A DNA stretch of 64,000 nt from NCBI GenBank assembly GCA_002862785.1, contig PKDZ01000018.1, positions 1-64,000 on the forward strand. Reading direction: 5' to 3'. Origin of the DNA: Flavobacteriales bacterium. GTDB lineage: Bacteria > Bacteroidota > Bacteroidia > Flavobacteriales_D > Sanyastnellaceae. The position numbers and the translations under genes were made by a program. Below the pieces are notes generated by a model. The model did no database searches. It was not told where the DNA came from and was given only the letters and a program-made list of their open reading frames with translations. Shown piece after piece: positions 5,580 through 64,000 of the stretch (position 1 is its first letter; the number at the start of each line of letters is the position of its first letter).

Positions 5580-5595
5580 GCCGTCCGAATCCCGA

Positions 5596-7765: not shown

Positions 7766-7769
7766 AGAG

Positions 7770-7777
7770 GAAAGGTA
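7770..7777 (-). promoter_or_regulatory. Possible -7 promoter element for the lipoprotein gene
   Basis: On the minus strand this reads TACCTTTC (consensus TAnnTTTG). Only four bases separate it from the GTG start, so a transcript would start at or near the start codon. Confidence 0.4.
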
Positions 7778-7841
7778 GGTTGTGGACAGGCGTGTGGAAT
7801 CGCCGTGGATAGGGAGCGGTTCCATCGGGGCCACGAAACGC

Positions 7842-7849
7842 TACTTTGG
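7842..7849 (+). promoter_or_regulatory. Possible -7 promoter element for dnaB
   Basis: TACTTTGG resembles TAnnTTTG and lies 20 bases before the preferred GTG start of dnaB. A TTG start at 7846 would fall inside this box, which argues against that longer version. Confidence 0.4.
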
Positions 7850-7869
7850 TTCTTCATCCCCAGTTGACC

Positions 7870-9408: not shown

Positions 9409-9450
9409 TTCGTTGCCGACCCGGGAGGGGCACCGGCCGGGAGCCTGCGG

Positions 9451-9458
9451 TATCTTTC
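9451..9458 (+). promoter_or_regulatory. Possible -7 promoter element
   Basis: TATCTTTC matches TAnnTTTG at all but the last fixed position and ends four bases before the ATG at 9463, which suggests an essentially leaderless message. Confidence 0.4.
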
Positions 9459-9462
9459 CGAC

Positions 9463-10737
9463 ATGATGCAGAAGCGAGGAGGAAGGGCTTTGGCCCTCGC
9501 CGTTCTGATGTTGGTGGCCACAGCCGCACACGCAAGTCGGTTGCTGATTCCAATGGATGAGGGACAATCCAATCACCTCAAGGCCTATGGCGTGGCTTTC
9601 TGGGTGCTGGAGCAGGGTCTGGAGGTGGAGTGGCTGCTGAACTATCGGGGAGGCAGCTTCCTGATCCCCGCGGCCCCGGCCATTTCCAGCGAATGCACCA
9701 TCCGTGGCGTCGATTTCGAGCCGATGGCCGATGTGCAGGCCCGGCAAATCCTGAACGGCATCGCGGATCCGGAGGTGAACCAGCAGCGCGTGAAGCTCGA
9801 AGTGGCACCCCGGGTGGCCGTGTACAGTCCGAAGAGCAAGCTTCCATGGGACGATGCTGTGACCCTCGTGTTGACGTACGCCGAGATTCCCTATGACGTC
9901 GTGTACGATGCCGAGGTGGTCGAGGGCAAGCTGGTCGAATACGACTGGCTCCACCTGCACCACGAGGACTTCACGGGGCAGTACGGCAAGTTTTATCGCT
10001 CCTACCGCAATGCCGCTTGGTATCAGGAGGAGCAGGCCAAGCAGGAGGCGAGTGCCGCTTCGCTTGGGTTTGGAAAAGTGAGCGAGATGAAGCGGGCGGT
10101 GGCACTGCAGATGCGCAACTTCGTGTTGGGCGGTGGCTTCCTGTTCACGATGTGTTCAGGCACCGACAGCTTCGACATTGCCTTGGCGGCTCAGGAAACG
10201 GACATCTGCGAGCCGATGTTCGACGGGGACCCGGCGGATCCCTTGGCGCAGCAGAAGTTGGACTTCGAGGAGGGCTTTGCGTTCTGGAATTACCGGTTGG
10301 TTCGAGACCCCCTCGTCTATGAGTTCAGTGACATCGACGCGACGGAGGACCACGGGAAAATCAAGGAGATCAAGGATTTCTTTACCCTGTTTGACTTCTC
10401 GGCCAAGTGGGATGTCATCCCGACGATGCTGACCCAATCCCACGAGCGGGTCATCCACGGGTTCATGGGACAGACCACGGCCTTCCGCAAGAAGTTCGTT
10501 CGGCCCGACGTGACCATTCTGGGTGAAAGCCGGGGGGTGGGATCGGCCAAGTACCTCCATGGCACCCTGGGAGAAGGTCAATGGAGCTATTACGGGGGGC
10601 ACGACCCGGAGGATTATCGGCACCTGGTCAACGACCCTCCCACAGATCTCAACCTGCATCCCAATTCACCTGGATACCGGTTGATCCTGAACAACATCCT
10701 GTTCCCGGCATCGCGGGAGAAGAAGCGGAAAACGTAG
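9463..10737 (+). CDS. Conserved Bacteroidota secreted protein, often labelled asparagine synthetase B
   Basis: A 424-residue protein with a signal peptide (residues 1-25, cleavage near AHASR) and the start SRLLIPMDEGQSNHLKAYG. I recognise this as a family common in Bacteroidota that databases often call asparagine synthetase B. I see no glutaminase Cys2 and no synthetase ATP-pyrophosphatase motif (SGGxDS), so that name is probably wrong. Other conserved-looking blocks are WLLNYRGGSFL, YDWLHLHHEDFTGQYG and GGGFLFTMCSGTDSFD. The last, with a Cys in a GGFLFxMCS turn, hints at a class I glutamine amidotransferase or ThuA-like fold in the periplasm. The substrate is unknown. It is the gene immediately after dnaB but has its own promoter-like box. 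Confidence 0.85.
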   Translation: MMQKRGGRALALAVLMLVATAAHASRLLIPMDEGQSNHLKAYGVAFWVLEQGLEVEWLLNYRGGSFLIPAAPAISSECTIRGVDFEPMADVQARQILNGIADPEVNQQRVKLEVAPRVAVYSPKSKLPWDDAVTLVLTYAEIPYDVVYDAEVVEGKLVEYDWLHLHHEDFTGQYGKFYRSYRNAAWYQEEQAKQEASAASLGFGKVSEMKRAVALQMRNFVLGGGFLFTMCSGTDSFDIALAAQETDICEPMFDGDPADPLAQQKLDFEEGFAFWNYRLVRDPLVYEFSDIDATEDHGKIKEIKDFFTLFDFSAKWDVIPTMLTQSHERVIHGFMGQTTAFRKKFVRPDVTILGESRGVGSAKYLHGTLGEGQWSYYGGHDPEDYRHLVNDPPTDLNLHPNSPGYRLILNNILFPASREKKRKT

Positions 10738-10742
10738 GGGAA

Positions 10743-11321
10743 TCAGTCCTGACGGACGGTGACGATGAGCGTGAAGAGTTCGCGCCCGTCCTCTTGGGAG
10801 TCAAATCGATAGTCGATTGGCCCGTTGGCCTTTTTGGCGAGGCTGAGGAGTCCGAGGCCCGCTCCGCCTTTGTCGGAGAGCTCTCCATTGCAGAGGGTCT
10901 CGATGTAGGTTTTCCGGAGGAGATCTTCCTCCATGCCGTTGATTTCGGCGAGGCGCTCCGAGAGGTGGTGGCGCATTTCGGTATCGACCATGTTGCCGCA
11001 CTGGACCTGAAATCCGATGGGGGTCGATTCGAGGGTCAGGTACAACTGGGTGAAGCCGTCTTCTTCAATGAGTCCATGCCGCATGACATTCTGCAGACAT
11101 TCGATGAGCACGTTTCCGATGCGCTTCATCATGGTGCGTCCGCCGGAAGCAGCCGAACTTTTCTCGGCGAGGGCGAGGAGGCCTTCCATTCCGGCAGAAT
11201 CCACCGGTCCGATGTAGCTGAGCAACGTGCCGAATTGGTCACCCCGACCATGGTCCTTCTGGAGGACAGACTGCAGTTCTCGCTGCAGAATCTCGAGGTT
11301 GGCTGACTCTTGGATCGACAT
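10743..11321 (-). CDS. SiaB-family protein kinase / HATPase-like regulator
   Basis: A 192-residue cytoplasmic protein resembling the SiaB family (anti-sigma-factor-like kinases that phosphorylate STAS partners). Visible features are IGNVLIECLQNVMRHG (N-box-like), EEDLLRKTYIETLCNG and DKGGAGLGLLSLAKKA (G-box-like). The ATG at 11321 is preferred over an in-frame GTG two codons upstream. No SiaC-like STAS partner or PP2C phosphatase gene is adjacent, so the rest of the switch lies elsewhere. On the minus strand TAAATTAG (11340-11347) is a plausible -7 element 18 bases upstream. Confidence 0.8.
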   Translation of the reverse strand: MSIQESANLEILQRELQSVLQKDHGRGDQFGTLLSYIGPVDSAGMEGLLALAEKSSAASGGRTMMKRIGNVLIECLQNVMRHGLIEEDGFTQLYLTLESTPIGFQVQCGNMVDTEMRHHLSERLAEINGMEEDLLRKTYIETLCNGELSDKGGAGLGLLSLAKKANGPIDYRFDSQEDGRELFTLIVTVRQD

Positions 11322-11468
11322 AGTCACGTTTTGGCCCTACTAATTTAATCAAATAATCGACGAATGCCATAAAAATGACGTTCAAATTGTAGAGTTTGTC
11401 GAAGGTATTTCCCAGATGCCCTGAGAACATGGGAATTCCGTGACTTTTTTCCACAGGTTGACGCCCTG

Positions 11469-44802: not shown

Positions 44803-47688
44803 TTAGTGGACGATGAGCGGGCTGCGGAACACGCCATTCGGGCTGTTGCCCTTGACGAAGTAAGTTCCGGCGGCCCAATGTCCGACCGCAATCGGCATGC
44901 GGTGCTGACCGGCTGCCAGTTGGCCCTCATGCAGGACGGCAATCTCTGCGCCTCGGGCGTCGAAGACCGAGATGCGCATCTGACCGTCGATGAGAACGTC
45001 GAGGTCCATCCAGGTCATGTCCCGGGCCGGCATCGGCGCGAGGGAGAAGGAGGCCAGCAGGTCGGATTCGACCACGGCGTTGGCGGTGGATCCGAACCGG
45101 AGAACCGGCAGGGTCTGTCCCGCCTGTCCCAGTTCTTCGCCTCCATTCAGATCGAGAAGGTCTTCCGAAGCATAGACGGTGCCCTCCACCCAAAGGCGGA
45201 AGGTGACCGCGGCAGGCTCTTCGAGCAGGATGGCCATCTGGGCGGCCGTGCTGCCGGCGTGCCCCACGACGGGACGGGCGGCCACACAGGTTTCGCCGAC
45301 GAAGGCACCGATGTAGGCCTCGCCCTCCACCGGCTGTTCGTCCAGCAGGATTTCAGCCGCCACGGCGGCGGCGAAGGGAGAGCGGACCACCGTCCATCCG
45401 GTCATCTGCTGTGCTGCTTCGTCAGAGCGAAGTCCAGCGATGGCCATTCCAGGGCCGTCCTCTGAGGCGGCCTCCGGGTAGGTGAGGGTGGCCGCTTCGA
45501 GCATCCGGACCCAGTAAGAACGTCCGGGCTCCATGTCGAGCAAGCTGCTGAATTCGTTTGGGTTGGCCGGGTTCCATACGGTGCCGTTCTGGCCGTCGAT
45601 GACCGTTCCCACCACGCCGTCGATGGTGGCGAGGGCGTCTTCGACGGACATGGCCACTTGCGGAACGTAGCCGATGAGGTTCCACCCTTCGTTGAGGTCG
45701 AGCGGCGTGGACGCGGCATTGAGCGGCTCACCGGAACTCGCCCAAAGGCCGTCGGCGCTCAGCTTGATCACATAGCCGGCTGCATCGGAGTGGGTCTGCA
45801 GGGAGTTGAACACACTGGGGATGCCGGGGGTGTAGCTGCCTCCGAGGGCGAATTCATCGTCTCCCAGCACCTTGAGCAGGTCACCACCGAGGGCGTCCTC
45901 GAAGAGACTGCTGATGGCGTAGTTCTCCGGCATGACATTGGTGGAGACGTAATTCCAGCCTTCCATGGCCGAAACCTCGAGGGTCGTGGCGCTGCAGTTG
46001 GCATCGAACATCAGCGGGTCATCGAAGGAACCATACTCCCCGAAGGACATGGCGGTGAGACCAGCATCCATCGTGCATGTGGCGCATTCGTCCTGGTTGA
46101 AGAAGAGGAAGTCCACCATCTCCTCACCGCCGGCGAGATAGACGGTCATGTTGATGTAGGTCGCTCCATCAAAGTCAATGATGTCTCCAGTGCCACGCAA
46201 CTCGTCTCCCACATAGGCGGCGACAGCGTCGTCCATGTCGGCGTTTTCGCCATCGACCGTGATCAGGGCGAGCACGGTGGCCACACTCGTATAGGTCGTG
46301 GGTTCTCCCCATTCGGGACCGCAGGTGTAGTCGCAGCTGCCGTCATCATCGGTTGCCGTAGGATCGAAGTTGTTGGCCGCCTCATCGGTGCAACCGGGCA
46401 CCTCGTCGCCGTCACAGATGCCGTCACCGTCGGCGTCGGCAAGGCAGTTTCCGTCGCAGTCGAGGCCGTCCTCAGCGTAGGTGCAGGAGCCATCGTCGTC
46501 GGTGGCCGCGCCGTTGTAGTTGCAGGCCATGTCGTCGGTGCAACCGGGCACCTCGTCGCCGTCACAGATGCCGTCACCATCGGCGTCGGCGAGGCAGTTT
46601 CCGTCGCAGTCGAGGCCGTCCTCAGCATAGGTGCAGGAGCCATCGTCATCGGTGGCCGCGCCGTCGTAGTTGCAGGCCATGTCGTCGGTGCAACCGGGCA
46701 CCTCGTCGCCGTCACAGATGCCGTCACCATCGGCGTCGGCGAGGCAGTTTCCGTCGCAGTCGAAGCCGTCCTCGGCATAGGTGCAGGAACCGTCGTCGTC
46801 GGTGGCCGCGCCGTCGTAGTTGCAGGCCATGTCGTCGGTGCAACCGGGCACCTCGTCGCCGTCACAGATGCCGTCACCATCGGCGTCGGCAAGGCAGTTT
46901 CCGTCGCAGTCGAGGCCGTCCTCGGCATAGGTGCAGGAGTCATCGTCGTTGTTGGCCTCAGGATCGTAGTTGCAGGCGGTCTCATCCGTACAGCCGTCGA
47001 TCGGGGGAGGACCGCCGAGGAAGAAGGTGTCGCGGAATTCATTCGAACCATCTCCATTGATGAAGTACTGGATGTAGAGTTGCCCATCGAGATCACCTGT
47101 GGTGGTGAACTGGCCCACCAGGACTTTGAGGTCGTCCCCGGCCACGCCGTTGGCGTCGCCGTTCAGGGCGTACCATGCACCTCCGATGGCATCGTCTATG
47201 GCGATGTTGCCTCCGGGAAGGCCCCCACCAGTGTCGAAATTGGTGAACCAAGGATTGTCACTCGATTGGACGGTGCTGACGTTGGCTTCTCCGGCCAGCG
47301 CATTGGGTGTTCCCGTCAGACCGATGGTGATCCACGAGTCATAAGCCAAGTCAGGGTAGACAGGGAAGAGAAGGCTGTTGATGCCGTTGGGGACTCCAGC
47401 GCCGAGGGCGGCGTGGTAGAAGTTTGTCGTGGTGTTGACGTAGGTCGGGTTGGTCGCATCGCCGGACACCGAGGAAACGAAGTCGTCGCTGTTTACCGTG
47501 GTGGCGTAGACGTGTGTCGTGCTGTAGCCGGTGAGGTCAGTAATGCCGAGGGCACCGACCAGCAGACCGATGTTTTCGTTGATCACTTCGACCTCGATGC
47601 CGTATTCCTGGGCATGGAGGGCGGGTTGGAATGGGGAGAGCAACAGCAGGGCGAGGAGGGCTGAGGTCAGGCGGAATCGTGTGGGCAT
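44803..47688 (-). CDS. Secreted modular protein (module A, GCTD repeats) with T9SS type A domain
   Basis: A 961-residue exported protein. In order: signal peptide (1-27); module A (29-227), about 84% identical by hand count to the N-terminal module of the giant protein; four 50-residue GCTD/calcium-type repeats; a beta domain (YTSVATVLALITVDGENADM); repeated WNYVSTN...WNLIGY-type segments resembling a surface domain; and a C-terminal T9SS sorting domain (FSLAPMPARDMTWMDLDVL ... YFVKGNSPNGVFRSPLIVH). The role is unknown; adhesion or calcium binding is inferred. It is divergent from adk, with about 160 bases between. Confidence 0.88.
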   Translation of the reverse strand: MPTRFRLTSALLALLLLSPFQPALHAQEYGIEVEVINENIGLLVGALGITDLTGYSTTHVYATTVNSDDFVSSVSGDATNPTYVNTTTNFYHAALGAGVPNGINSLLFPVYPDLAYDSWITIGLTGTPNALAGEANVSTVQSSDNPWFTNFDTGGGLPGGNIAIDDAIGGAWYALNGDANGVAGDDLKVLVGQFTTTGDLDGQLYIQYFINGDGSNEFRDTFFLGGPPPIDGCTDETACNYDPEANNDDDSCTYAEDGLDCDGNCLADADGDGICDGDEVPGCTDDMACNYDGAATDDDGSCTYAEDGFDCDGNCLADADGDGICDGDEVPGCTDDMACNYDGAATDDDGSCTYAEDGLDCDGNCLADADGDGICDGDEVPGCTDDMACNYNGAATDDDGSCTYAEDGLDCDGNCLADADGDGICDGDEVPGCTDEAANNFDPTATDDDGSCDYTCGPEWGEPTTYTSVATVLALITVDGENADMDDAVAAYVGDELRGTGDIIDFDGATYINMTVYLAGGEEMVDFLFFNQDECATCTMDAGLTAMSFGEYGSFDDPLMFDANCSATTLEVSAMEGWNYVSTNVMPENYAISSLFEDALGGDLLKVLGDDEFALGGSYTPGIPSVFNSLQTHSDAAGYVIKLSADGLWASSGEPLNAASTPLDLNEGWNLIGYVPQVAMSVEDALATIDGVVGTVIDGQNGTVWNPANPNEFSSLLDMEPGRSYWVRMLEAATLTYPEAASEDGPGMAIAGLRSDEAAQQMTGWTVVRSPFAAAVAAEILLDEQPVEGEAYIGAFVGETCVAARPVVGHAGSTAAQMAILLEEPAAVTFRLWVEGTVYASEDLLDLNGGEELGQAGQTLPVLRFGSTANAVVESDLLASFSLAPMPARDMTWMDLDVLIDGQMRISVFDARGAEIAVLHEGQLAAGQHRMPIAVGHWAAGTYFVKGNSPNGVFRSPLIVH
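46394..46993 (-). repeat. Four tandem 150-bp repeats
   Basis: Unit starts at 46394, 46544, 46694 and 46844 give an exact 150-base (50-residue) period. The first three units are nearly identical in DNA; the fourth is more diverged. Each encodes ADADGDGICDGDEVPGCTDD, then ACNYDG and DDDGSC. The DNA near-identity shows recent expansion or gene conversion and makes this a likely site of length variation. Confidence 0.93.
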
Positions 47689-52243: not shown

Positions 52244-55111
52244 ATGTGCCGCTCGATCGATCGCCTTCTGGCCTTGTTGTTCCTCGTGTTCTGTGCCCTC
52301 TCCACTGTGGATGCCCAATCGGTCATCCGCGGTCAGGTCATCGATGGAGAGACGGGAGACCCGGTGTTTGCGGCGGGCGTCCTGGTGGAAGGGAGCAATA
52401 CGGGAACCAGCACTGATTTCGATGGTCGATTCCGTTTGGAGGTGCCCTCCCTTCCGGTGCGGTTGAACGTGAGCTTCATTGGCTGCGCATCCCTCGCGAT
52501 TGACGTGCGCAATGCTACGGATGAGGTGCGTGCGGTGCTGCAGCCCGACGCTGTCCTCATGGGGGAGGCCGAAGTGGTGGGTTCCCGCATCGATGAACGC
52601 CAGAAGCAGGGGCCCCTGACCGTCGAGAGCATGGATGTGCTCGCCATCAAGGAAGCGCCGAGCGGCAACTTCTACGAGGGCCTGGGCAACCTCAAGGGGG
52701 TCGACCTGACGAGTGCCTCCCTGGGATTCAAGATCATCAACACCCGCGGTTTTAACAGCACGTCTCCCGTGCGTTCCCTGCAGCTCATCGATGGGGTGGA
52801 CAACCAGAGTCCCGGACTGAATTTCTCCCTTGGCAACTTTCTCGGCGCTCCGGAACTGGACGTCATGAAGGTGGACATTGTGGCCGGAGCGAGCAGTGCG
52901 TTCTACGGCCCTGGTGCCTTCAACGGGGTGGTGTCCATGGAGACCAAGTCGCCTTTCCGCTTTCCTGGGGTCAGCGTGAGCGCCAAGGCCGGTGAGCGCA
53001 ACCTGACCGAGACCGGTTTCCGGTACGCCGACTACGTGGAGGATGCGGACGGCAATCCCGTGCTCGGATTCAAGGTCAACGCTTTCCGCTTCAGTGCGGA
53101 CGACTGGGTGGCGGACAACGACAACCCCGTGGACTTTGCCAATGACGGGCTGGGCAATCCCGGCCGCTTCGACGCCGTGAACATCTACGGGGACGAGTAC
53201 CGTCCCGTCTTCGACTACAGTGGAGACAATAGCGCCAATGCCCGGGGACTCGGCAGCTTCTATCGGACAGGCTATCGGGAAATCGACCTCGTAGACTACG
53301 GCACGAAGAATCTGAAGGTCAGCACCGCCCTGCACCTGCGCCTCCAACCGGAGAAAACCTATGAGTCGGCCGAGCTGGTGTATGGATTCAACAGCGGATT
53401 CGGCACGACGGTCTACCAGGGGGACAATCGGTTCTCGCTGCGTGATATCGAATTCTACCAGCACAAGATCCAGCTCTCCAAGCCGGGCAAGTGGTTCATC
53501 CGGGCCTACCGCACTAGTGAGGATGCCGGCAACAGTTACGACCCGTACGCCACCGCCCTGCGGCTTCAGGAGGAGGCCCGCTCGGACTACAGCTACTCCA
53601 AGGTGTATTACCGGTATTGGGTCGACAGCATCGTGCCGGGCATCAACCTGAGTTACCCTGAACTCGAGCAGATCGGAGTGGACCCGAACTACGGCTTCCC
53701 CATTTTCGGCTATCCCGAGGGGGCCGTAGAGGGCTGGTACTCCGACTACTCGGATTCCTTGGCCTTCTGGCACTCGCAGGTGGAGAACTGGACCAACAAT
53801 GGTACCGCCGGTCTGCCCGATGTGTCGCAGGATCCACTGGGCTATCTGACCCCGGGAACACCGGAATTCGAGGCTGAATTCAATCGTCTGGTGACCGCCA
53901 AGAACAACGCAGACGAGGGAGGCACCCTGTTCTATGATCGGTCTTCACTTATCCACGCCCATGCTGAGCGCATCTTCGAGGTGGACGGTTTGGAGGAAAT
54001 TCGGGTCGGCGCCAATTTCCGGAGGTACACGCCCGACAGCGACGGCACCATCTTCAGCGACACCTCCGGGGTCGTCATCACCAACCAGGAACTCGGCTTG
54101 TATTCAGGTATCCGTAGGCGATTTGCGGAGGACAAGGTGATCACCACTGCTACCATCCGGGCCGACAAGAACCAGAACTTCGATTGGGTCTTTTCCCCGG
54201 CAGCCTCGCTCGTCTGGAAGCCCCGCGAGCAGGATTATTTGCGGGTCAGCTTTTCAAGCGCCTTGCGAAATCCTACGCTCGCTGACCAGTACCTCTACCT
54301 TGATGTTGGTCCTGCTACTTTGGTCGGCAATTTGCAAGGGCGCGAGAACTTGGTGAGTGTCTCCAGTTTTGTCGACTATCGAAATAGCATTTCATCATCC
54401 AATGGGTTGCCGTTTGGCAACCTTGATACGCTACAATATTTTAATATCGCACCGTTACGTCCTGAGCAGGTGCGATCCATAGAAGTGGGCTACCGAACCA
54501 CTCTTGGGGAGCGGCTGTATCTGGACGGCAGCTGGTATTTGAGCCAGTACAATCACTTCATTGGATACAATATCGGACTCGACGTTCTTTTCGAGAACCC
54601 TGACTTTCCAGAGGCAATCACAGCAGTTGACGTCTTCCGTTATGCTGCCAACTCCATTAATACCGTGCGCACAACAGGGGCGTCGATAGGCGCCAATTGG
54701 TATGTAGGAGACAACTGGATGATCTCCGGTAATTACAGCTGGAATCGTTTGGTGAAGACGAACGAGGATGACCCTATCATTCCGGCTTTCAATACACCAG
54801 AACACAAGTGCAATTTTGGAATCAGCACTCGAGATCTTCGACTGCGAGAAATGAGTACATGGGGTTTCGGCGTGAATTATAAGTGGGTGCAAGGCTTCGT
54901 CTTCGAAGGCTCTCCCCAATTCACCGGATTTGTTCCCACGTTCGATCTTCTCGACATCCAGGCCAATGCGCGCATCGATGCGCTCAACTTGACCATTAAA
55001 GCGGGGGCGTCAAATGTGCTGGAAAACCTGCACATTGAGACTTACGGTGGGCCAACGGTGGGCCGTCTGGCCTATCTCAGTTTGCTTTACGAGGTCAACC
55101 CTCGGAACTGA
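52244..55111 (+). CDS. TonB-dependent outer-membrane receptor
   Basis: A 955-residue receptor with a signal peptide (1-24), a carboxypeptidase-like regulatory domain (VIRGQVIDGETGDPVFAAGV, about 25-110), a plug domain (about 120-230; NTRGFNSTSPVRSLQLIDGVDN) and a 22-strand-type barrel. It should import an unknown ligand using TonB/ExbBD energy. There is no SusD partner next to it, so a glycan-uptake locus is not supported. The last third of the gene (from about 54270) has much lower G+C and different codon choice from the first two thirds. The next gene shares this property. Confidence 0.92.
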   Translation: MCRSIDRLLALLFLVFCALSTVDAQSVIRGQVIDGETGDPVFAAGVLVEGSNTGTSTDFDGRFRLEVPSLPVRLNVSFIGCASLAIDVRNATDEVRAVLQPDAVLMGEAEVVGSRIDERQKQGPLTVESMDVLAIKEAPSGNFYEGLGNLKGVDLTSASLGFKIINTRGFNSTSPVRSLQLIDGVDNQSPGLNFSLGNFLGAPELDVMKVDIVAGASSAFYGPGAFNGVVSMETKSPFRFPGVSVSAKAGERNLTETGFRYADYVEDADGNPVLGFKVNAFRFSADDWVADNDNPVDFANDGLGNPGRFDAVNIYGDEYRPVFDYSGDNSANARGLGSFYRTGYREIDLVDYGTKNLKVSTALHLRLQPEKTYESAELVYGFNSGFGTTVYQGDNRFSLRDIEFYQHKIQLSKPGKWFIRAYRTSEDAGNSYDPYATALRLQEEARSDYSYSKVYYRYWVDSIVPGINLSYPELEQIGVDPNYGFPIFGYPEGAVEGWYSDYSDSLAFWHSQVENWTNNGTAGLPDVSQDPLGYLTPGTPEFEAEFNRLVTAKNNADEGGTLFYDRSSLIHAHAERIFEVDGLEEIRVGANFRRYTPDSDGTIFSDTSGVVITNQELGLYSGIRRRFAEDKVITTATIRADKNQNFDWVFSPAASLVWKPREQDYLRVSFSSALRNPTLADQYLYLDVGPATLVGNLQGRENLVSVSSFVDYRNSISSSNGLPFGNLDTLQYFNIAPLRPEQVRSIEVGYRTTLGERLYLDGSWYLSQYNHFIGYNIGLDVLFENPDFPEAITAVDVFRYAANSINTVRTTGASIGANWYVGDNWMISGNYSWNRLVKTNEDDPIIPAFNTPEHKCNFGISTRDLRLREMSTWGFGVNYKWVQGFVFEGSPQFTGFVPTFDLLDIQANARIDALNLTIKAGASNVLENLHIETYGGPTVGRLAYLSLLYEVNPRN

Positions 55112-55161
55112 CGATATCAGGACGTTTCCAACAGCTACAAATTTTTTTCTCCATCGACGAA

Positions 55162-55186
55162 AAGCGTGTGTAATAAGGACACGCTT
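55162..55186 (+). terminator. Hairpin after the TonB receptor gene
   Basis: AAGCGTGT pairs with ACACGCTT around a nine-base loop. The T-run after it is weak (CCTTGTCC), so this is a possible terminator only. Confidence 0.4.
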
Positions 55187-55200
55187 CCTTGTCCATTCGC

Positions 55201-55208
55201 TATCTTGA
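55201..55208 (+). promoter_or_regulatory. Possible -7 promoter element
   Basis: TATCTTGA lies 24 bases before the ATG at 55233. Confidence 0.35.
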
Positions 55209-55232
55209 CCAATTAACTATGTGGACCAAATC

Positions 55233-58200
55233 ATGAAGCAAACCTGTCTTTTTTTGGCGTTTCTCGCCTTCTGTTTTGTTGCAGACGCTCAAACACGTTA
55301 CCTCGATGAGGTTTTTAGCGATGTGACTGTTACATCTGATATTCAATACGGCACCAACATTAGCGTTTTGCCAGCGCTTCAAGGGATGCCGCCTGCCCCG
55401 CAGCCGCTCGTATTGGATTTGTACGAACCTACCGGTGATGTGGAAACTGACCGGCCCTTGCTGTTGTACTTTCACACTGGTAATTTTTTGCCGACTTACA
55501 TCAATCAAAGCGGTCTTGGGACAAAAACCGACAGCTGTGCGGTTGAGATCTGCACGAGATATGCCAAGATGGGTTACGTAGTCGCTAGTGTTGATTACCG
55601 CCTCGGTTACAATCCAACTGCTCCCACTCAAACCGAGCGAACCTTGCAATTGATTCAGGCCGCTTACCGGGGGGTACAGGACAGCCGAACGGCGGTCCGA
55701 TTCTTTAGAAAAACCATTGCTGAAGATGGAAATCCGTACGGCATTGGGTCAGACAAAATCGCGATGTTTGGAGAAGGCACGGGCGGTTACATTACCTACG
55801 CTTCCGCTGGCATCTCGAGTTACAACGATATCATTTTCGAAGATGACGGAGTGACCCCTATCGCCAAGTTTTGGTATGATCCGGGCGATGGAAGTTTTGT
55901 TCCAATGGTGGTCGAGAGCATTCATGGGGACGTTAATGCCACAACGGACACTTATGCCCCTGCCTCCTTGGGAGGATTCCAAATGTGTATGGCAAACCAT
56001 GTGGGGTATAGTTCTGACTTTGACTTTCAGGTGAACCTGGGCGGCGCCATGGGTGATTTGAATTGGCTGGACGAAGGAGATATTCCCATGGTAAGTGTTC
56101 AATGCCCGCACGACCCGTATGCTCCGTACGAGTCTGCAGTGCTGATCGTACCAGGCGTCAATCTCCCTATTGTTGAAGTTGACGGTGCTTACAACGTTCA
56201 CGCAGAAATCAATGGATATGCAACGAACAACAATGCGGTGTTTGCAGAGGCCGGAATCGATGATCCGTATTCCGATTTGAACAATGGTTGGGATGGCTTA
56301 TTCCCAGTTTTGAACGACTACGTAGACGGCGTTCCCACTGAACCATTTGACAGCTCTCCTTGGCAGTGGTGGAGCGAGGCAGCAGTACAAGCATATGATG
56401 ACGCTGCAGGCACCAATATTTTGGCAACTCAGTTGACGCTCAACCCAACAATGGGAGAAGCTGAAGCGCTGTATTGGATTGACCAAATCATGGAATACAA
56501 CACGCCGAGGATGGGTCTTTCCCTTGGTTTGTTGACTCCGCAAGACATCGATAATCAAGGAGTTCGGTATCTTGATGAGGTTTTCTCAGATGTAACTGTG
56601 ACTGAAGGTGTGGTGTATGGAACAAACATTACAGTGCTTCCCGCTTTGCAGGGGATGCCTCCCGCTCCAGAAGACTTGTTGTGTGACATTTATGAGCCAA
56701 CTGGAGATTTGGAGACAGAGCGTCCGCTGATTCTCTACTTCCATACGGGCAACTTTCTGCCGAAATACATTAATCAAAGTGCGCTCGGTACTAGAACTGA
56801 CTCATGTACAGTGGCCATGTGTAAAGAATTTGCACGTAAGGGTTATGTTGTAGCCAGTGTTGATTACCGCCTCGGCTACAACCCCACGGCGCCCACTCAA
56901 ACAGAGAGAACGCTGCAATTGATTCAAGCCGCTTATCGCGGGGTGCAAGACAGCCGAACTGCAGTTCGATTTTTCAGAAAAACCATCGCTGAAGATGGAA
57001 ATCCGTACGGCATTGGGTCAGACAAAATCGCCATGTTTGGAGAAGGTACTGGAGGATATATCACTCTGGCCTCAGCGGGCATCTCTAGTTATAGTGACAT
57101 CATTTTTGAAGATGACGGAACGACCCCGATCTCCAAGTTTTGGTATGATCCGGGCGATGGAAGTTTCGTTCCAATGGTGGTCGAGAGCATTCATGGAGAC
57201 GTTGATGCCACTATTGACACGTATGCTCCAGCCTCTTCGGGAGGCTTCCAAATGTGTATGGCAAACCACGTGGGCTACAGTTCGGACTTCAACTTCCAAA
57301 TGAACCTTGGCGGTGCTTTGGGTGACTTGAATTGGCTTGACGAAGGGGATATCCCTATGGTCAGTTTTCAAGGACCGCACGATCAGTATGCCCCTTACAC
57401 TAATGCCGTTCTCATTGTTCCTGGTGTGAATCTGCCGATAGTAGAAGTAGACGGTGCGTACAACATTCATCAGGAAATCAATGGATACGCCACGAATAAC
57501 AATGCAGTTTTCGCAGAGATTGGATTGCCCGACCCTGCTGTTGCTTTCGGAAACCAAGGGTGGGATGGTTTGTACCCTGTGCTGAACAATTATGATGAGG
57601 ACGGAACCCCGCTAGAGCCATTTGATGGGTCTCCCTGGCAATGGTGGAGTGTCGACGACCTGCAAGCCTATGATGATCTTGCTGGGACCAATTTGACTTC
57701 GACACAATTGACCCTCAACCCAACAATGGGGCCTGCGGAAGCAGCGTATTGGATTGAGCAAATTGTCGATTACACTGCGCCGCGTCTGGCGGTTAGTCTC
57801 GAGGTTGCTGCACTCGGACCTGGGTGTAATGACGAAAGCGCTTGCAACTACAGCGCCCTTGCCACGACAGACGATGGTTCTTGTGAATATGCAGCCGAAG
57901 GGTTTGACTGTGACGGCAACTCCCTGACGGTCCTAGGTTGTACCGATGTGATTGCGTGCAATTACGACGGTTTCGCTACGGAAGATGATGGTTCCTGTGA
58001 CTACATGGACACCACGCTCCCGACCGGCGCCGAGAATGTCTGGTTGGTGGGGCTGACCGTCTCCGGCACGGAGAACGAGCCCCTCGCCGGTGGCTGTGAG
58101 CTCGACGGAGGGGTGAATCCCAATCTTGCCGTAAATGGTGTGTTCCTCGGCGACGGAACGGGCGGATCGCTTGTGATGTCTAACGTGACCGACCCGACCG

Positions 58201-59189
58201 GTGGATTGCTGGTTGATCTAGTGGCTATTGCAAGTGCCACTCCGGTGGCTATGTGTGGGGCCCAATTCACGGTCAATCTTTCGGGCAACATCCTCACGCT
58301 CGCCGAGCAAGATGGAGTGTGGCAGACGATTGTGCCGGTGCTCGGCCCGCAGTTCCTCTGGGCTGCACCGCTGTCCAGCTTCACGCCGGGTTGTGGTGAC
58401 CCATCCGCTTGTGGATTCACCAACCCCTGTGACATCAGCCTGCTCTGCGACTACACCGATACAGACGGTGACGGCCTGCTCGACTGCCAGGAGATTCCCG
58501 GCTGCGACGATCCGAACGCCGACAACTACAACGAGAACGCCACCGATCCTGGGCCGTGCAACTACAACGGTTGCATCAATCCGGACGCCATCAACTACGA
58601 CAGTGCCGCCAACACGGACGACGGTTCCTGCCAGTTCGAGGTCGTGTTCCGCGTGAACGCTTCCAACATCGAGGTGGCCGGCTTCATCGACATCGCCGGT
58701 TCCTTCAACGGGTGGGGTGACCCCGCCACGGTGATGACCGAGATGGGCTACGGAGTGTGGCAAGCCACGCTGATCCTCGGCGTCGGGGACTACGCCTTCA
58801 AGTACCGCAACGGTGGCGATTGGGAGACCATCACCGGCGATTGCACCGACGTTGGGTACAGCGACCGTCAGGTGAGCGTGGTGGACAGCCCGCTCATTCT
58901 GGATGCCGTGTGCTACGGCGAGTGCGGTCTCTGTGCCGGTTGTACGGATCCCTTCTCTGCCGAGTACAGCCCGTTTGCTGGCGAGGATGACGGAAGCTGC
59001 ATGAGCGCCATCGTGGCCGGCTGCACCTATCCCGATGCCGACAATTTTAACCCCGCTGCGACGGACGACGACGGTTCCTGCCAGATCTCCGGAACGAGCT
59101 CCTGCCCGACGGACCTCGATGGTGACGGCGCCACGGCTGTGGGTGACTTGCTCCTCATGCTCGGTGCCTTCGGCCAGACCTGCGAGTGA
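55233..59189 (+). CDS. Secreted protein with two tandem alpha/beta-hydrolase-like domains, GCTD repeats and dockerin-like tail
   Basis: A 1318-residue exported protein with a signal peptide (1-20). Two 423-residue copies follow (22-444 and 445 to about 860), each with the carboxylesterase-like order YFHTGNF, VDYRLGYNPTAP, GVQDSRTAVRFFRK and FGEGTGGYIT. In place of the nucleophile elbow GxSxG both copies read GEGTGG (180-185 and 603-608), so the usual Ser is Gly and the oxyanion HGG is HTG. The domains may be inactive or use another mechanism. GCTD-type repeats come next, then one glycogen-binding-like module (IAGSFNGWGDP ... CGLCAGC), two more repeats, and the final motif DLDGDGATAVGDLLLML...FGQTCE. 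No T9SS domain is seen. Confidence 0.85.
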   Translation: MKQTCLFLAFLAFCFVADAQTRYLDEVFSDVTVTSDIQYGTNISVLPALQGMPPAPQPLVLDLYEPTGDVETDRPLLLYFHTGNFLPTYINQSGLGTKTDSCAVEICTRYAKMGYVVASVDYRLGYNPTAPTQTERTLQLIQAAYRGVQDSRTAVRFFRKTIAEDGNPYGIGSDKIAMFGEGTGGYITYASAGISSYNDIIFEDDGVTPIAKFWYDPGDGSFVPMVVESIHGDVNATTDTYAPASLGGFQMCMANHVGYSSDFDFQVNLGGAMGDLNWLDEGDIPMVSVQCPHDPYAPYESAVLIVPGVNLPIVEVDGAYNVHAEINGYATNNNAVFAEAGIDDPYSDLNNGWDGLFPVLNDYVDGVPTEPFDSSPWQWWSEAAVQAYDDAAGTNILATQLTLNPTMGEAEALYWIDQIMEYNTPRMGLSLGLLTPQDIDNQGVRYLDEVFSDVTVTEGVVYGTNITVLPALQGMPPAPEDLLCDIYEPTGDLETERPLILYFHTGNFLPKYINQSALGTRTDSCTVAMCKEFARKGYVVASVDYRLGYNPTAPTQTERTLQLIQAAYRGVQDSRTAVRFFRKTIAEDGNPYGIGSDKIAMFGEGTGGYITLASAGISSYSDIIFEDDGTTPISKFWYDPGDGSFVPMVVESIHGDVDATIDTYAPASSGGFQMCMANHVGYSSDFNFQMNLGGALGDLNWLDEGDIPMVSFQGPHDQYAPYTNAVLIVPGVNLPIVEVDGAYNIHQEINGYATNNNAVFAEIGLPDPAVAFGNQGWDGLYPVLNNYDEDGTPLEPFDGSPWQWWSVDDLQAYDDLAGTNLTSTQLTLNPTMGPAEAAYWIEQIVDYTAPRLAVSLEVAALGPGCNDESACNYSALATTDDGSCEYAAEGFDCDGNSLTVLGCTDVIACNYDGFATEDDGSCDYMDTTLPTGAENVWLVGLTVSGTENEPLAGGCELDGGVNPNLAVNGVFLGDGTGGSLVMSNVTDPTGGLLVDLVAIASATPVAMCGAQFTVNLSGNILTLAEQDGVWQTIVPVLGPQFLWAAPLSSFTPGCGDPSACGFTNPCDISLLCDYTDTDGDGLLDCQEIPGCDDPNADNYNENATDPGPCNYNGCINPDAINYDSAANTDDGSCQFEVVFRVNASNIEVAGFIDIAGSFNGWGDPATVMTEMGYGVWQATLILGVGDYAFKYRNGGDWETITGDCTDVGYSDRQVSVVDSPLILDAVCYGECGLCAGCTDPFSAEYSPFAGEDDGSCMSAIVAGCTYPDADNFNPAATDDDGSCQISGTSSCPTDLDGDGATAVGDLLLMLGAFGQTCE
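55296..57815 (+). repeat. Tandem duplication of a 1269-bp hydrolase-domain unit
   Basis: Copy 1 starts at 55296 and copy 2 at 56565, exactly 1269 bases (423 codons) apart. Protein similarity is high throughout. DNA similarity is patchy, with a 44-base perfectly identical stretch (55719-55762 and 56988-57031) inside more diverged flanks, which suggests local gene conversion after duplication. Confidence 0.93.
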
Positions 59190-59212
59190 TTCGCCATCCA
59201 TCATGACATTAG

Positions 59213-59242
59213 GAAAGGCGCCCACTGGGCGCCTTTCTTTTT
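59213..59242 (+). terminator. Terminator after the tandem-hydrolase gene
   Basis: GAAAGGCGCCC pairs with GGGCGCCTTTC around an ACT loop, followed by a run of T. Confidence 0.9.
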
Positions 59243-59365
59243 GCACGGACAAAGGGGGGAGGGGCACTGGTGAGCCACACGTCAGAGATGTGATGTGGTT
59301 GGCCAGATTGCCCCTGTCGGGTCGGCATAGAGGTGTGGCCCGACGGCTTCTAGGTTTTGGTTACG

Positions 59366-59395
59366 GGAGGCCGTTCGAAACGTCGGACGGCCTCC
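59366..59395 (+). other. Unexplained hairpin upstream of doxX
   Basis: GGAGGCCGT pairs perfectly with ACGGCCTCC around a 12-base loop (TCGAAACGTCGG). There is no T-run on either side. It lies between a terminator and the next promoter box and may be a relic or a regulatory structure. Confidence 0.35.
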
Positions 59396-59418
59396 TCAAT
59401 TCCACGATGTTCCGGTCT

Positions 59419-59426
59419 CAACTTTG
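59419..59426 (+). promoter_or_regulatory. Possible -7 promoter element for the DoxX gene
   Basis: CAACTTTG matches TAnnTTTG at all but the first fixed base and ends four bases before the ATG at 59431. Confidence 0.4.
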
Positions 59427-59430
59427 CCGC

Positions 59431-59829
59431 ATGAGTTGGCAAAAGGATGTGTCCTTGCTGTTGCTGCGTGTGGGCGCAGGCGGCCTGATGGTGCCCCATG
59501 GCTGGGGCAAGTTGGAACGACTCCGGACCGGTCTCGCCGAAGGGGAGGTCCGGTTCTATGACTGGATGGGGCTCGGTGAAGAGCTGTCGCTCGGGCTGGC
59601 GGTGTTCGGTGAACTCGTGGCGCCGGCCTTCATCGTGCTGGGGCTGTTCACCCGGTGGATGTCCGTTCCAGCCGCCATCACCATGGCGGTGGCCGCGTTT
59701 GGTGCCCATGCGGGTGACCCCATCAGCGACAAGGAGCACGCGCTCCTCTTCCTTGTGCCGTTTGTGGTGCTGGCCCTGATGGGCGGCGGGCGTTACGGAT
59801 TGGACCACCGCATCGGCCGACCCCGCTGA
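59431..59829 (+). CDS. DoxX-family membrane protein
   Basis: A 132-residue protein with four membrane spans and the family pattern LLLLRVGAGGLMVPHGWGKL near the N-terminus and FGELVAPAFIVLGLFTRW in the middle. DoxX-type proteins are linked to quinone or thiol redox work at the membrane, but the role of this one is unknown. ATG 59431 is preferred; ATG 59407 lies upstream of the promoter-like box. It converges with valS, only three bases apart. Confidence 0.85.
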   Translation: MSWQKDVSLLLLRVGAGGLMVPHGWGKLERLRTGLAEGEVRFYDWMGLGEELSLGLAVFGELVAPAFIVLGLFTRWMSVPAAITMAVAAFGAHAGDPISDKEHALLFLVPFVVLALMGGGRYGLDHRIGRPR

Positions 59830-59832
59830 GGA

Positions 59833-62487
59833 TCAGCCCAAGGCATCGAGCTGGGCCTGAAGCACCTCGATCTTGGCGACGGCGTCGGCTTCCTTGGCGC
59901 GCTCGGAGGCCACGACCTGTTCCGGGGCGCCGTTGACGAACTTCTCGTTGCTGAGCTTCTTCCGCACAATGTTGAGGAAGCCCTGCTGATACTCGAGGTC
60001 CTTGCGGATTTTGTCTTTCTCGGCTTCCAGGTCGACCGCCTCGCCGGCGGGGATGAAGAATTCGTGGGTCTCTACGACGAAGCCAAAGGCCCCGGTCACC
60101 TTCTCTTTCACGCGTTCCACACCGGTGACGTTGCACAGGTGACAGACCACGCTTTCGAGATTGGCCGGGTACGGCTTTCCCTCCGCGTCGACGATGACCT
60201 TGAGGTCGAGGGCCTGCTTGTTGGGAATGTGGCCCTTTTGGCGGATGCCGCGGACTTCGGCCACGATGCGGGTGGTCTGGTCGAAGTCGGCGAGCAAGGT
60301 CTCATCCACGGGCTGGCCGCCGCGCGTCGGGAAGGGTGAGGTGCACAGTAGCGTTCCCTCAGGACGCCTCTGAAGCAGGCTGTAGACCTCTTCGGTGAGG
60401 AAGGGCATGAAGGGGTGCAGCAGCGAGAGCATGCGCTCAAAAAGGCGCACCGTGGCCTCATAGGTCTCACGGTCGCAAGGCTCACCATAGGTGGGCTTGG
60501 CCAGTTCCAAATACCAGGAGCAGAAGTCGTCCCAGATGTGCTTGTAGGTGGCCATCAGGGCCTCGCTCAGGCGGAATTCGGCAAAGCTCTGCTCGATGTC
60601 GGCGAGCACCTGCTCGGACCGGGCTTCGAACCAGCGGATGCCGGCGGCCGCATGATCGGGCTGGGCGGCGGTGTCGCTGACTTCCCACCCCTTCACCAGG
60701 CGGAAGGCGTTCCAAATCTTGTTGGAGAAGTTGCGTCCCTGTTCGCAGAGGCTCTCATCGAACGGCAGGTCGTTTCCGGCCGGTGAGGTCAGCAGCATGC
60801 CGACGCGAACCCCGTCTGCTCCGTACTGCTGCATGAGTTCGATGGGGTCGGGGCTGTTGCCGAGCGACTTGGACATCTTCCGGCCTTGCTTGTCCCGCAC
60901 GATGCCGGTGTAGTAGACGTTGCGGAAAGGCGGGGCCTGACGGTATTCGTAACCCGCGATGATCATCCGGGCGACCCAAAAGAACATGATCTCCGGGGCG
61001 GTGACCAAATCATTGGTGGGGTAGTAGTAATCGACTTCCTCCTTGGTGTAGAAGCCGTCAAACACGCTGATGGGCCAGAGCCAGGAGCTGAACCAGGTGT
61101 CGAGAACGTCCTCGTCCTGACGCAGGTCGGCCGGGGCAATGGTGCGGCCGGCGGCCTCCGTGGCCAATGCGGCGGCGGTGTCGGCATCGGCGGCGACCAC
61201 ATACTTCGCTTCGGCGGAGGTCGGCTCTCCATCGTAATACCACGCCGGGATCCGGTGGCCCCACCACAGTTGGCGGGAGATGCACCAGTCCTTGACGTTC
61301 TCCATCCAGTTGCGGTAGCTGTTCTTGAATTTGGCCGGGTGGAACTGGATGGTGTCGTCCATCACATGGTTGAGGGCCGGCTTGGCCAGCTCTTCCATGG
61401 CGACGAACCACTGCATGGACAGGCGCGGCTCGATGATGGCGCCCGTGCGCTCGGAGCGGCCCACCTTGTTGGGGTGGTCCTCCACCTTGACGAGGTGCCC
61501 GGCGGCGTCGAGGGCCGCGGTAAAGGTCTTGCGGGCTTCGAATCGGTCCTGTCCCTCGAATTCACCGCCGACCGCGTTGACCGTACCGTCGGGGTTGAGC
61601 ATGTCGATGACCTCGAGGCCGTGCTTCTGGCCGAGCTCGTGGTCGTTGGGATCGTGGGCAGGGGTGACTTTGAGGCAACCGGTGCCGAACTCCCGATCGA
61701 CGTACTCGTCGAGGATGATTGGAATGCTGCGGCCTGCGACCGGGACGATGGCGCGCTTGCCGTGGAGGTGGGTGTACCGCTCGTCTTCCGGGTGAATGCA
61801 GATGGCCGTATCGGCGAGGATGGTCTCCGGTCGAGTCGTGGCGATGGTGAGCCAGTCGTCCGTGCCCTCGACTTGGTAGCGCACATGGTGAAGCTTGGAC
61901 TGCTCTTCGGTGTGGAGGACCTCCTCGTCGGAGACGGCCGTCAGGGCCTGCGGGTCCCAGTTGACCATGCGCAGGCCGCGGTAGATGTGGCCCTTGGCGT
62001 GCAGGTCGAGGAAGGTGTCGATGACGCTGCGGGAGTAATGCTCGTCCAGCGTGAAGTTGGTCCGTTCCCAGTCACAACTGGCGCCGAGTTTGCGAAGCTG
62101 CTTGAGAATGATGCCTCCGTGTTCGCGGGTCCAGTCCCAGGCGTGTTCGAGAAAGGCGTCGCGGCTGAGGTCGGACTTCTTGATGCCCTGGTCGCGGAGT
62201 TTGCGGACCACCTTGGCTTCCGTGGCGATGGAGGCGTGGTCGGTTCCCGGCACCCAGCAGGCGTTCTTGCCTTGCATCCGCGCGCGGCGCACGAGCACGT
62301 CCTGGATGGTGTTGTTCAACATGTGGCCCATGTGCAGCACGCCTGTCACGTTGGGCGGGGGGATGACCACGGTATAGGGCTCACGGTCGTCAGGAATGCT
62401 GCGGAAGGCCTTGGCGTCTTCCCAGACTTGGTTCCAGCGGTCTTCGACGGTGGTCGGATTGTAATGGGAGGGGATCTCTTGGGCCAT
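59833..62487 (-). CDS. valS: Valyl-tRNA synthetase
   Basis: ValS charges tRNA-Val. The 884-residue class I synthetase has the HIGH-type motif (LHMGH, 51-55), a large editing domain, the KMSKSLGNSPDP signature near 535-545, an anticodon-binding helical domain and a C-terminal coiled-coil arm (about 815-884). Length and motifs are complete. Confidence 0.97.
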   Translation of the reverse strand: MAQEIPSHYNPTTVEDRWNQVWEDAKAFRSIPDDREPYTVVIPPPNVTGVLHMGHMLNNTIQDVLVRRARMQGKNACWVPGTDHASIATEAKVVRKLRDQGIKKSDLSRDAFLEHAWDWTREHGGIILKQLRKLGASCDWERTNFTLDEHYSRSVIDTFLDLHAKGHIYRGLRMVNWDPQALTAVSDEEVLHTEEQSKLHHVRYQVEGTDDWLTIATTRPETILADTAICIHPEDERYTHLHGKRAIVPVAGRSIPIILDEYVDREFGTGCLKVTPAHDPNDHELGQKHGLEVIDMLNPDGTVNAVGGEFEGQDRFEARKTFTAALDAAGHLVKVEDHPNKVGRSERTGAIIEPRLSMQWFVAMEELAKPALNHVMDDTIQFHPAKFKNSYRNWMENVKDWCISRQLWWGHRIPAWYYDGEPTSAEAKYVVAADADTAAALATEAAGRTIAPADLRQDEDVLDTWFSSWLWPISVFDGFYTKEEVDYYYPTNDLVTAPEIMFFWVARMIIAGYEYRQAPPFRNVYYTGIVRDKQGRKMSKSLGNSPDPIELMQQYGADGVRVGMLLTSPAGNDLPFDESLCEQGRNFSNKIWNAFRLVKGWEVSDTAAQPDHAAAGIRWFEARSEQVLADIEQSFAEFRLSEALMATYKHIWDDFCSWYLELAKPTYGEPCDRETYEATVRLFERMLSLLHPFMPFLTEEVYSLLQRRPEGTLLCTSPFPTRGGQPVDETLLADFDQTTRIVAEVRGIRQKGHIPNKQALDLKVIVDAEGKPYPANLESVVCHLCNVTGVERVKEKVTGAFGFVVETHEFFIPAGEAVDLEAEKDKIRKDLEYQQGFLNIVRKKLSNEKFVNGAPEQVVASERAKEADAVAKIEVLQAQLDALG

Positions 62488-62516
62488 GGCGCAGGCGAAT
62501 GGGGCGGATGCGGCGC

Positions 62517-62524
62517 CAAATTTA
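62517..62524 (-). promoter_or_regulatory. -7 promoter element for valS
   Basis: Minus strand TAAATTTG, a perfect match to TAnnTTTG, 29 bases before the valS ATG. Confidence 0.55.
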
Positions 62525-62573
62525 GCCTGTTAAAATCGCGTTAACCCCTTTCTGACCTGCGGATTGCCCCCCG

Positions 62574-62581
62574 TATCTTGG
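62574..62581 (+). promoter_or_regulatory. Possible -7 promoter element for the DUF1573 gene
   Basis: TATCTTGG lies 29 bases before the ATG at 62611. TTTC at about 62549-62552 is a possible -33 element 21 bases upstream. Confidence 0.45.
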
Positions 62582-62610
62582 CGGCAGAACACAATACACC
62601 CCTTTCCATC

Positions 62611-63054
62611 ATGAAAAAGGTTCTCCTTACCCTCGCCGTGGTCTTCGGCGGTTTTGCCCTCGCTTCCGCTCAGGAAGTGGTCAATGGTCCGGTCATCAGC
62701 CTCGACAAGGAGGTCCACGACTACGGCACCATGGATCAGGGTGGCGACGGCAACTGCGTCTTCACCGTCACCAACGACGGCACCGATCCCCTCATCATTT
62801 CCCGCTGCAAGGGTTCCTGCGGCTGCACGGTTCCCCAGTGCGACAAGGATCCCATCATGCCGGGTGCCACCAGCTCCATCAAGGTCAAGTACGACACCAA
62901 GCGTGTCGGCCCGATCAACAAGAGCGTGACCATCACCTCCAACGCCTCCAACGAGCCGACCAAGGTGATTCGCATCAAGGGCAAGATCGAAGCCGTCGCC
63001 CAGACGGTGGGTGCCCCGGTCAAGAACGCTGCCGGCCCGACCAACAAGCAGTAA
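62611..63054 (+). CDS. Secreted DUF1573 protein
   Basis: A 147-residue exported protein with a signal peptide (1-20) and one DUF1573 Ig-like domain (about 30-127): HDYGTMDQGGDGNCVFTVTN, SRCKGSCGCTVPQ and KSVTITSNASNEPTKVIRIKG. Three conserved cysteines sit in the SRCKGSCGC segment. The family is abundant in Bacteroidota and probably mediates protein contacts in the periplasm or on the surface. The function is unknown. Confidence 0.93.
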   Translation: MKKVLLTLAVVFGGFALASAQEVVNGPVISLDKEVHDYGTMDQGGDGNCVFTVTNDGTDPLIISRCKGSCGCTVPQCDKDPIMPGATSSIKVKYDTKRVGPINKSVTITSNASNEPTKVIRIKGKIEAVAQTVGAPVKNAAGPTNKQ

Positions 63055-63080
63055 TCCTCTGGCGCCCAGCGCCTTTTGGG

Positions 63081-63114
63081 AGCCGCTCCGGAATTCCGGG
63101 GCGGCTTTCTTTTT
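63081..63114 (+). terminator. Terminator of the DUF1573 gene
   Basis: AGCCGCTCCGG pairs with CCGGGGCGGCT (one G-T pair) around an AATT loop, followed by TTCTTTTTG. Confidence 0.93.
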
Positions 63115-63175
63115 GTTTGAATCCGGGCCTCATGGGCCTCCCGAACTTGCGGCCCGGCCCGGCTGTTGTTCCAGC

Positions 63176-63349
63176 ATGTTCGGAATGTTCAAGAAGGACC
63201 CCGCCGAGAAGCTCCGGAAGGAGCACGCCCGGCTGTTGTCCGAAGCGCACCGTCTCAGCACGGTGGACCGCGCCCGCAGCGATGAGATGACCGCCAAGGC
63301 CGCGGAGGTGGAGGCGAAGTTGATTGCCCTTCAAGACGGCACATCATGA
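63176..63349 (+). CDS. Small Lacal_2735-family protein
   Basis: A 57-residue helical protein, MFGMFKKDPAEKLRKEHARL ... LSTVDRARSDEMTAKAAEVE, which matches the Lacal_2735 (DUF6435-like) family of small Bacteroidota proteins of unknown function. Its stop codon overlaps the start codon of the following SDR gene (ATGA at 63346-63349), which indicates coupling. Confidence 0.85.
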   Translation: MFGMFKKDPAEKLRKEHARLLSEAHRLSTVDRARSDEMTAKAAEVEAKLIALQDGTS

Positions 63350-64000
63350 GGACCATCGCCATCATCGGGGACAGCAAGGGCATCGGCCTCTCTTTGCGTC
63401 AGCGTCTCCTGGACCGGGGCGACAAGGTAATCGGGGTGTCCCGCACCGGAGCTCAGGCCGAAGGAAACTACACGGGCCTCGTCTTCGATGCGGCGGCTCA
63501 TCCCTGCGACTTGTCCTCGTTTACGGATCGTTTGGACGGGTTGGTGTACTGTCCGGGGACCATCAACCTGAAGCCGGTCCGGGGCGTCAAGCCCGAGGTG
63601 GTCTTGGATGATTTCAAGGTGAATGCCATGGGGCTCTTGCAAACGGTGCAGGCCAACCTCAAGTTGCTCAAGGCCGCAGCGGCAGACCCCGTCGGGGGGC
63701 AGCCCTCCATCGTGGGATTCAGCACCGTGGCGGTCCAGACGGGCATGGGATTCCATGCCTCCATTGCCATGGCCAAGGGCGCACTGGAAGGGCTCGTCCG
63801 CACCATGGCGTGCGAGTTTGCGCCGGACATCCGAGCCAATGCCATTGCCCCCTCGTTGACGGATACGCCGCTGGCGGCGGCTCTGCTCTCTTCGGAAGCC
63901 AAGCGGGAAGCCAGTGCCGACCGCCATCCCCTGAAGCGGGTGGCCACCGCGGATGACGTCGCCGCGATGGCGGCCTTCTTGCTGTCGCCGGATGCCGCGG
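63346..64000 (+). CDS. SDR-family oxidoreductase without the catalytic Tyr (partial, runs off the window)
   Basis: The frame is open from ATG 63346 to the end of the window (218 codons visible). The N-terminal nucleotide-binding motif is IIGDSKGIG, followed by LVYCPGTINLKPV and the end motif NAIAPSLTDTPLAA. The usual YxxxK reads IxxxK (FHASIAMAKGALEGL), so the catalytic Tyr is absent. I recall a Flavobacteria SDR subfamily with the same FHAS...AKGA motif, so this is probably a real subgroup. The substrate is unknown. It is coupled to the upstream small gene. Confidence 0.85.
   Translation, partial: MRTIAIIGDSKGIGLSLRQRLLDRGDKVIGVSRTGAQAEGNYTGLVFDAAAHPCDLSSFTDRLDGLVYCPGTINLKPVRGVKPEVVLDDFKVNAMGLLQTVQANLKLLKAAAADPVGGQPSIVGFSTVAVQTGMGFHASIAMAKGALEGLVRTMACEFAPDIRANAIAPSLTDTPLAAALLSSEAKREASADRHPLKRVATADDVAAMAAFLLSPDAA

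Follow-up and report, generated by a model that had tools for sequence, protein, structure and literature searches.

Apparent import of a low-G+C segment across a TonB-dependent receptor gene and a hydrolase-like gene in an uncultured genus of Flavobacteriales

Background

Streptococcus pneumoniae has acquired fragments of penicillin-binding protein genes from S. mitis by interspecies allelic replacement (PMC8715442), and genes are also exchanged among the human Neisseria species (PMC2911385). In the SusC/SusD pairs of Bacteroidota, the gene for the secreted partner directly follows that for a TonB-dependent receptor, whose N terminus carries a CarboxypepD_reg-like domain. Enzymes of the alpha/beta-hydrolase fold, such as the BD-FAE and Thermogutta terrifontis Est2-type carboxylesterases (5ao9) and Lip_vut4 (6nkf), have the nucleophile serine of a GxSxG motif. 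Neuroligins are non-catalytic, cholinesterase-like adhesion proteins in which the same fold, without the nucleophile serine, is used for binding.

The window analysed here is a stretch of 64,000 nucleotides (contig PKDZ01000018.1, positions 1 to 64,000) from a Flavobacteriales bacterium of the family Sanyastnellaceae. The source genome (G000) is a 2.44-Mb draft in 92 contigs, probably metagenome-derived, that is 98.5% complete and 0.12% contaminated.

A segment of low G+C across two genes

Two adjacent genes of the forward strand are concerned: a TonB-dependent receptor (52244-55111; CarboxypepD_reg-like domain PF13715, plug PF07715 and barrel PF00593) and a secreted protein of 1322 amino acids (55221-59189, with its true start likely at the ATG at 55233), which comprises a signal peptide, two alpha/beta-hydrolase-like repeats (55281-56534 and 56541-57806), DDGSC-type repeats and a C-terminal DxDGD segment. 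Measured in 500-bp windows, G+C is 0.58-0.62 up to 54.0 kb, 0.48-0.51 over 54.25-57.5 kb and 0.61-0.62 from 58.0 kb onward; the drop from approximately 0.60 to 0.49 spans about 54.25-57.95 kb and is followed by recovery. Third-position G+C (GC3, 60-codon bins) is 73-85% before the segment, 43-58% within it and 73-92% after it, except for one short bin at the end of the receptor gene (66%) and an intermediate bin near 58.1 kb (57%). Both open reading frames are open throughout. The preliminary description of this DNA, which reported an abrupt segment of low G+C and A/T-ending codons at 54270-57990 with both frames intact, is thereby confirmed; G+C measured over that interval is 0.495, and the change in windowed G+C is abrupt.

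At the 3.6-kb scale, windows of the same genome have a mean G+C of 0.624 (SD 0.025, 1.26 Mb sampled), and only the segment at 54-58 kb and a gene island at the end of another contig fall below 0.53. The latter (contig C22, L164, positions 1-11400, G+C about 0.50) is a run of whole genes with its edge near 11.4 kb, between genes; it encodes two glycoside-hydrolase-like proteins, a sulfatase-like protein and DDGSC-repeat proteins, and looks like an added island for polysaccharide use.

The locus in related genomes

The order of the locus is adk, obgE, a dehydrogenase gene, the receptor gene, the tandem hydrolase-like gene and, on the opposite strand, valS (names other than those of the receptor and the hydrolase-like gene were assigned by inspection of open reading frames), and this order is collinear, as far as contigs reach, in all 11 other species of the genus with usable sequence. 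The same G+C dip was absent from all 11 of these genomes; the preliminary description had named a gradient shared by related genomes as what would refute it, and their alignment revealed none. The nearest relative, G008, is 84-97% identical to G000 in the flanks (300-bp bins) but 67-78% identical over most of the segment, the values being 78-85% for the receptor portion and 67-74% for the hydrolase portion. At conserved residues, the share of codons identical to those of G008 drops from 70-87% to 27-53% over nearly all of the segment, with the exception of one bin near 54.8 kb (70%), and then recovers. G008 itself has a G+C of 0.56-0.65 and a GC3 near 80% across the same region, where its identity to a third species, G009, is 79-84%, their usual similarity. 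Since G008 keeps both its high G+C and its usual relationship to G009, it is G000 that has changed, and G000, not its relatives, was the recipient. The hydrolase part of G000 is near 65-76% identical to all sampled species of the genus, and synonymous sites in the segment are near saturation in comparison with every one of them.

Breakpoints

Likelihood segmentation against G008 with two breakpoints placed the edges at 54312 and 57905 (delta lnL 279), with 73.3% identity between them and 90.7% outside. The best-fit interval for the apparently imported tract (54312-57905, forward strand) is about 3.59 kb long and has a G+C of 0.49. The edges first given for the segment, 54270 and 57990, were within 50-90 bp of these, but the right edge does not lie in the middle of the hydrolase part: in the secreted protein it maps to residue 895, beyond the end of hydrolase repeat 2.

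The left junction interval (54234-54318, the range within 3 log units) corresponds to receptor residues 664-692 and was placed in the barrel by residue mapping and by the barrel strands of a structural model of the receptor (pLDDT 75), which was used for this placement alone, its plug being too poorly modelled. Residues 690-955 of the receptor are therefore within the tract. The right junction (57905-57925, with support confined to 57905) follows the first DDGSC-type repeat after hydrolase repeat 2, so that the exchange covered the signal peptide and the full length of both hydrolase repeats. Beyond it lies a transition zone (57905-58270), recognizable by an identity to G008 of about 85%, by intermediate codon usage and in the segmentation, which is possibly a second, small mosaic step.

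Phylogeny

Trees of the left and right parts of each gene, which the preliminary description had proposed as a check, place the flanks with G008 and the hydrolase repeats with G013. In protein trees, G000 groups with G008 for the 5' part of the receptor (99/98) and for the 3' part of the hydrolase-like gene (98/93), whereas the hydrolase repeats group G000 with G013 (100/100). For the repeats, sisterhood of G000 and G008 is rejected by protein (p 9e-9) and by codon positions 1+2 (p 1e-7); by DNA, it is rejected by repeat 1 alone (p 0.005) and by repeat 2 (p 6e-13). For the 819 bp of receptor sequence inside the tract, neither G008 (p 0.46) nor G013 (p 0.23) is rejected as sister, so the case for import of this part rests on the drop in identity and in G+C. 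Ancestry changes at both edges, and between them are found the affinity of the hydrolase part to G013 and the lower G+C.

Origin of the segment

It is very probable that homologous recombination brought in the low-G+C segment from a congeneric species of lower G+C. Replacement of this kind had been proposed in the preliminary description, and identity, codons, segmentation and trees now support it strongly. Two marks of allelic replacement, a locus collinear in relatives and a conflict of phylogeny between segment and flanks, are present. The preservation of gene order and frame, without element genes and without long repeats at the edges, points to homologous recombination. A fragment of approximately 3.6 kb from a congener would have replaced the resident allele from about residue 690 of the receptor to about residue 895 of the secreted protein, with gene order and frames preserved through the exchange, presumably in a single event and probably by RecA-dependent strand exchange with free DNA taken up from outside. 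The genome encodes dprA and comEC (the same searches also match Escherichia coli), both widespread, which allow natural transformation without showing it. The DDGSC-type repeats at the right edge might have aided the exchange; sequences resembling them recur elsewhere in the genome. Counting against import is the expectation that recombination at 20-30% divergence is rare, as reported for two species that are 24% apart (PMC4453061).

Among 114 genomes of the family, none exceeds 74% identity across the tract in a DNA search, and a protein search of the named genome collection returned one match, Flavobacteriales bacterium UBA1959 (unclassified, 73% in the best segment). With a best identity of 74% and saturated synonymous sites, the donor species therefore lies outside the sampled set. 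The G+C of the donor genome must be below that of the recipient; by analogy with the G013 locus (G+C 0.537), it is perhaps 0.53-0.55.

A variant of the import, in which the receptor end, the hydrolase repeats and the zone at 57.9-58.25 kb were acquired in several recombination events, from different donors at different times, seems rather unlikely. It would be in keeping with the affinity to G013 of the hydrolase part and not of the receptor part, with the different identities of these two parts to G008, with the transition zone beyond the right edge, and with a wider mosaic, in that the right flank and the 3' end of the hydrolase-like gene (57900-63500) show greater similarity to G009 and G015 than the left flank does. 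However, G+C and codon usage are roughly uniform along the tract, and the receptor gene is more conserved throughout the genus, which could alone explain its higher identity. The locus as such has probably been exchanged more than once, judging by the intermediate zone at 57.9-58.27 kb and by the greater similarity of the right flank to G009 and G015.

Two further observations concern the relatives. The G009 assembly contains two versions of the C-terminal part of the receptor (L010/C155 and L071/C112, 80% identical in nucleotides), each followed by the start of a hydrolase-like gene, which may mean that the bin mixes two strains or two species or that it holds two loci. Elsewhere in the window, of the 144 matches in G009 and the 118 in G008, most fall in a short, dispersed repeat-like sequence (46328-47600).

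Much less probable than import is an assembly chimera, in which reads of a co-occurring species of lower G+C were joined to those of G000 at conserved k-mers, so that the tract exists in no single chromosome. With 92 contigs the assembly is a draft, contigs of several relatives end within the locus, and the joins are at homologous positions, as k-mer joins would be; but completeness is high and contamination low, a second, G008-like copy of the locus is absent from the assembly, exact matches to the aligned relatives at the junctions are at most 29 bp, which is short for assembly k-mers, and the sole other long stretch of low G+C in 1.26 Mb is a gene island. A recombination hot spot, considered on account of contig ends, was dropped, as the ends of the relatives' contigs here are near the expectation from fragmentation by a rough count.

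Vertical inheritance of a locally A+T-rich locus, through amino-acid or codon constraint or high expression and without any exchange, has next to no probability: although the hydrolase region is some 3-5 G+C points below its flanks in several relatives, it is refuted by the high G+C and GC3 of G008 over the region, by the collapse of identity to G008 at the very edges of the G+C change, and by the discordant tree. Insertion of a mobile element or genomic island, which the abrupt change of G+C might suggest, is equally negligible and refuted, since relatives have the same two genes in the same order with no added genes, both frames continue, and a search for extra genes, an integrase and long repeats at the tract edges found none of them. 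Import by homologous recombination remains the preferred explanation.

A hydrolase fold without the nucleophile serine

Both repeats of the secreted protein match PF20434 and PF07859 above the cut-offs and are assigned to the alpha/beta-hydrolase fold; the AlphaFold model of repeat 2 (mean pLDDT 92) has a Foldseek match to Est2 (E 1.4e-8). A PDB search with the single full-length sequence found no relative, whereas a profile search did, with the Est2-type carboxylesterases and Lip_vut4 as the best matches by sequence profile and structure. In the profile alignment, GEGTGG occupies the site of GGSAGG and GDSSGG in Est2 and Lip_vut4, and no nucleophile serine in a GxSxG context was found. The elbow of repeat 1 is at 55770-55787, with glycine at the nucleophile position (55776-55778), and that of repeat 2 is at 57039-57056 (glycine at 57045-57047), where the model has the glycine at the usual nucleophile elbow between strand 158-168 and helix 170-180.

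The same substitution extends across the order. Of 57 aligned homologous domains, drawn from families across the order, 56 have glycine at the nucleophile position of GxSxG and one has an X there; the motif of the receptor-linked domains is GxG[TSA]GG order-wide, and the position aligned as the catalytic histidine varies. Strong relatives in a profile search (E <1e-30, a set that includes ordinary esterases at its weak end) are present in 193 of 249 genomes of the order. Judged from these sequences, the hydrolase-like family is most likely non-catalytic, although a nucleophile shifted one residue onward, where threonine, serine or alanine occurs, is possible. The earlier description of the exchanged part of the secreted protein as catalytic is, by its sequence, wrong: with G-E-G-T-G at the elbow in place of the G-x-S-x-G of active relatives, catalysis is unlikely, and the repeats are probably binding domains.

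The two repeats are 80% identical in protein sequence. Their middle 120 codons encode residues that are 92-97% identical and share 57-75% of codons (37% expected over the whole repeat); such near-identity with differing codons suggests an old, partial gene conversion between the repeats.

The receptor and its neighbour

Of the 46 hydrolase-like open reading frames examined, 38 are immediately preceded on their own strand by a receptor gene, with 57-393 bp from the receptor stop to the start of the hydrolase domain; these 38 loci represent seven families of the order. Several of the other eight are at contig ends, or else are ordinary or unlinked paralogues. The preliminary description held that joint exchange implies that the two proteins work as a pair, but this does not follow: adjacent genes are transferred together by linkage alone, and a shared tract is therefore no sign of pairing. 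It is the conservation of gene order across seven families, not the recombination tract, that suggests that receptor and secreted protein act as a pair.

The receptor scores 100.1 bits with the SusC/RagA model, below its cut-off of 368.25 bits, and its partner has no SusD match, matching alpha/beta-hydrolase families only. A literature search found no described pair of a receptor and a dead hydrolase. We tentatively propose, as a possibility still on the doubtful side, that Flavobacteriales possess in this pair an outer-membrane uptake system not yet described, in which one or two dead alpha/beta-hydrolase domains capture the ligand in a role like that of SusD. If so, the imported tract would have altered the ligand-binding parts of the receptor and of its partner at once.

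Comparison with described systems

The import adds one more case of a process already known. As in the Streptococcus and Neisseria cases, the edges are inside genes, a resident homologue was replaced, frames and gene order were kept, and ancestry differs to the left, inside and to the right of the tract. Unlike those cases, this one concerns an uncultured genus of Flavobacteriales, two adjacent genes for a receptor and a secreted protein, and a donor of strongly differing G+C. It is a well-resolved example, from an uncultured group, of how fragments that differ by 20-30% in sequence can cross species boundaries within a genus, and of breakpoints that can fall so that whole domains are swapped.

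Of larger value is the pair of receptor and pseudo-hydrolase genes, conserved in seven or more families of the order and of more interest than the recombination event itself. The secreted protein has the fold of Est2-type enzymes and Lip_vut4 but glycine in place of their nucleophile serine, and the residue at the putative position of the catalytic histidine varies across the order. Neuroligins, which are among the profile matches of the hydrolase-like domain and have a putative likeness to it at the elbow, differ in being eukaryotic, distant and without a link to a transporter. The pair is like SusC and SusD in the domain organization of its TonB-dependent receptor and in the position of the receptor gene upstream of that for the secreted partner, but its receptor falls under the SusC/RagA cut-off and its partner has the alpha/beta-hydrolase fold instead of that of SusD.
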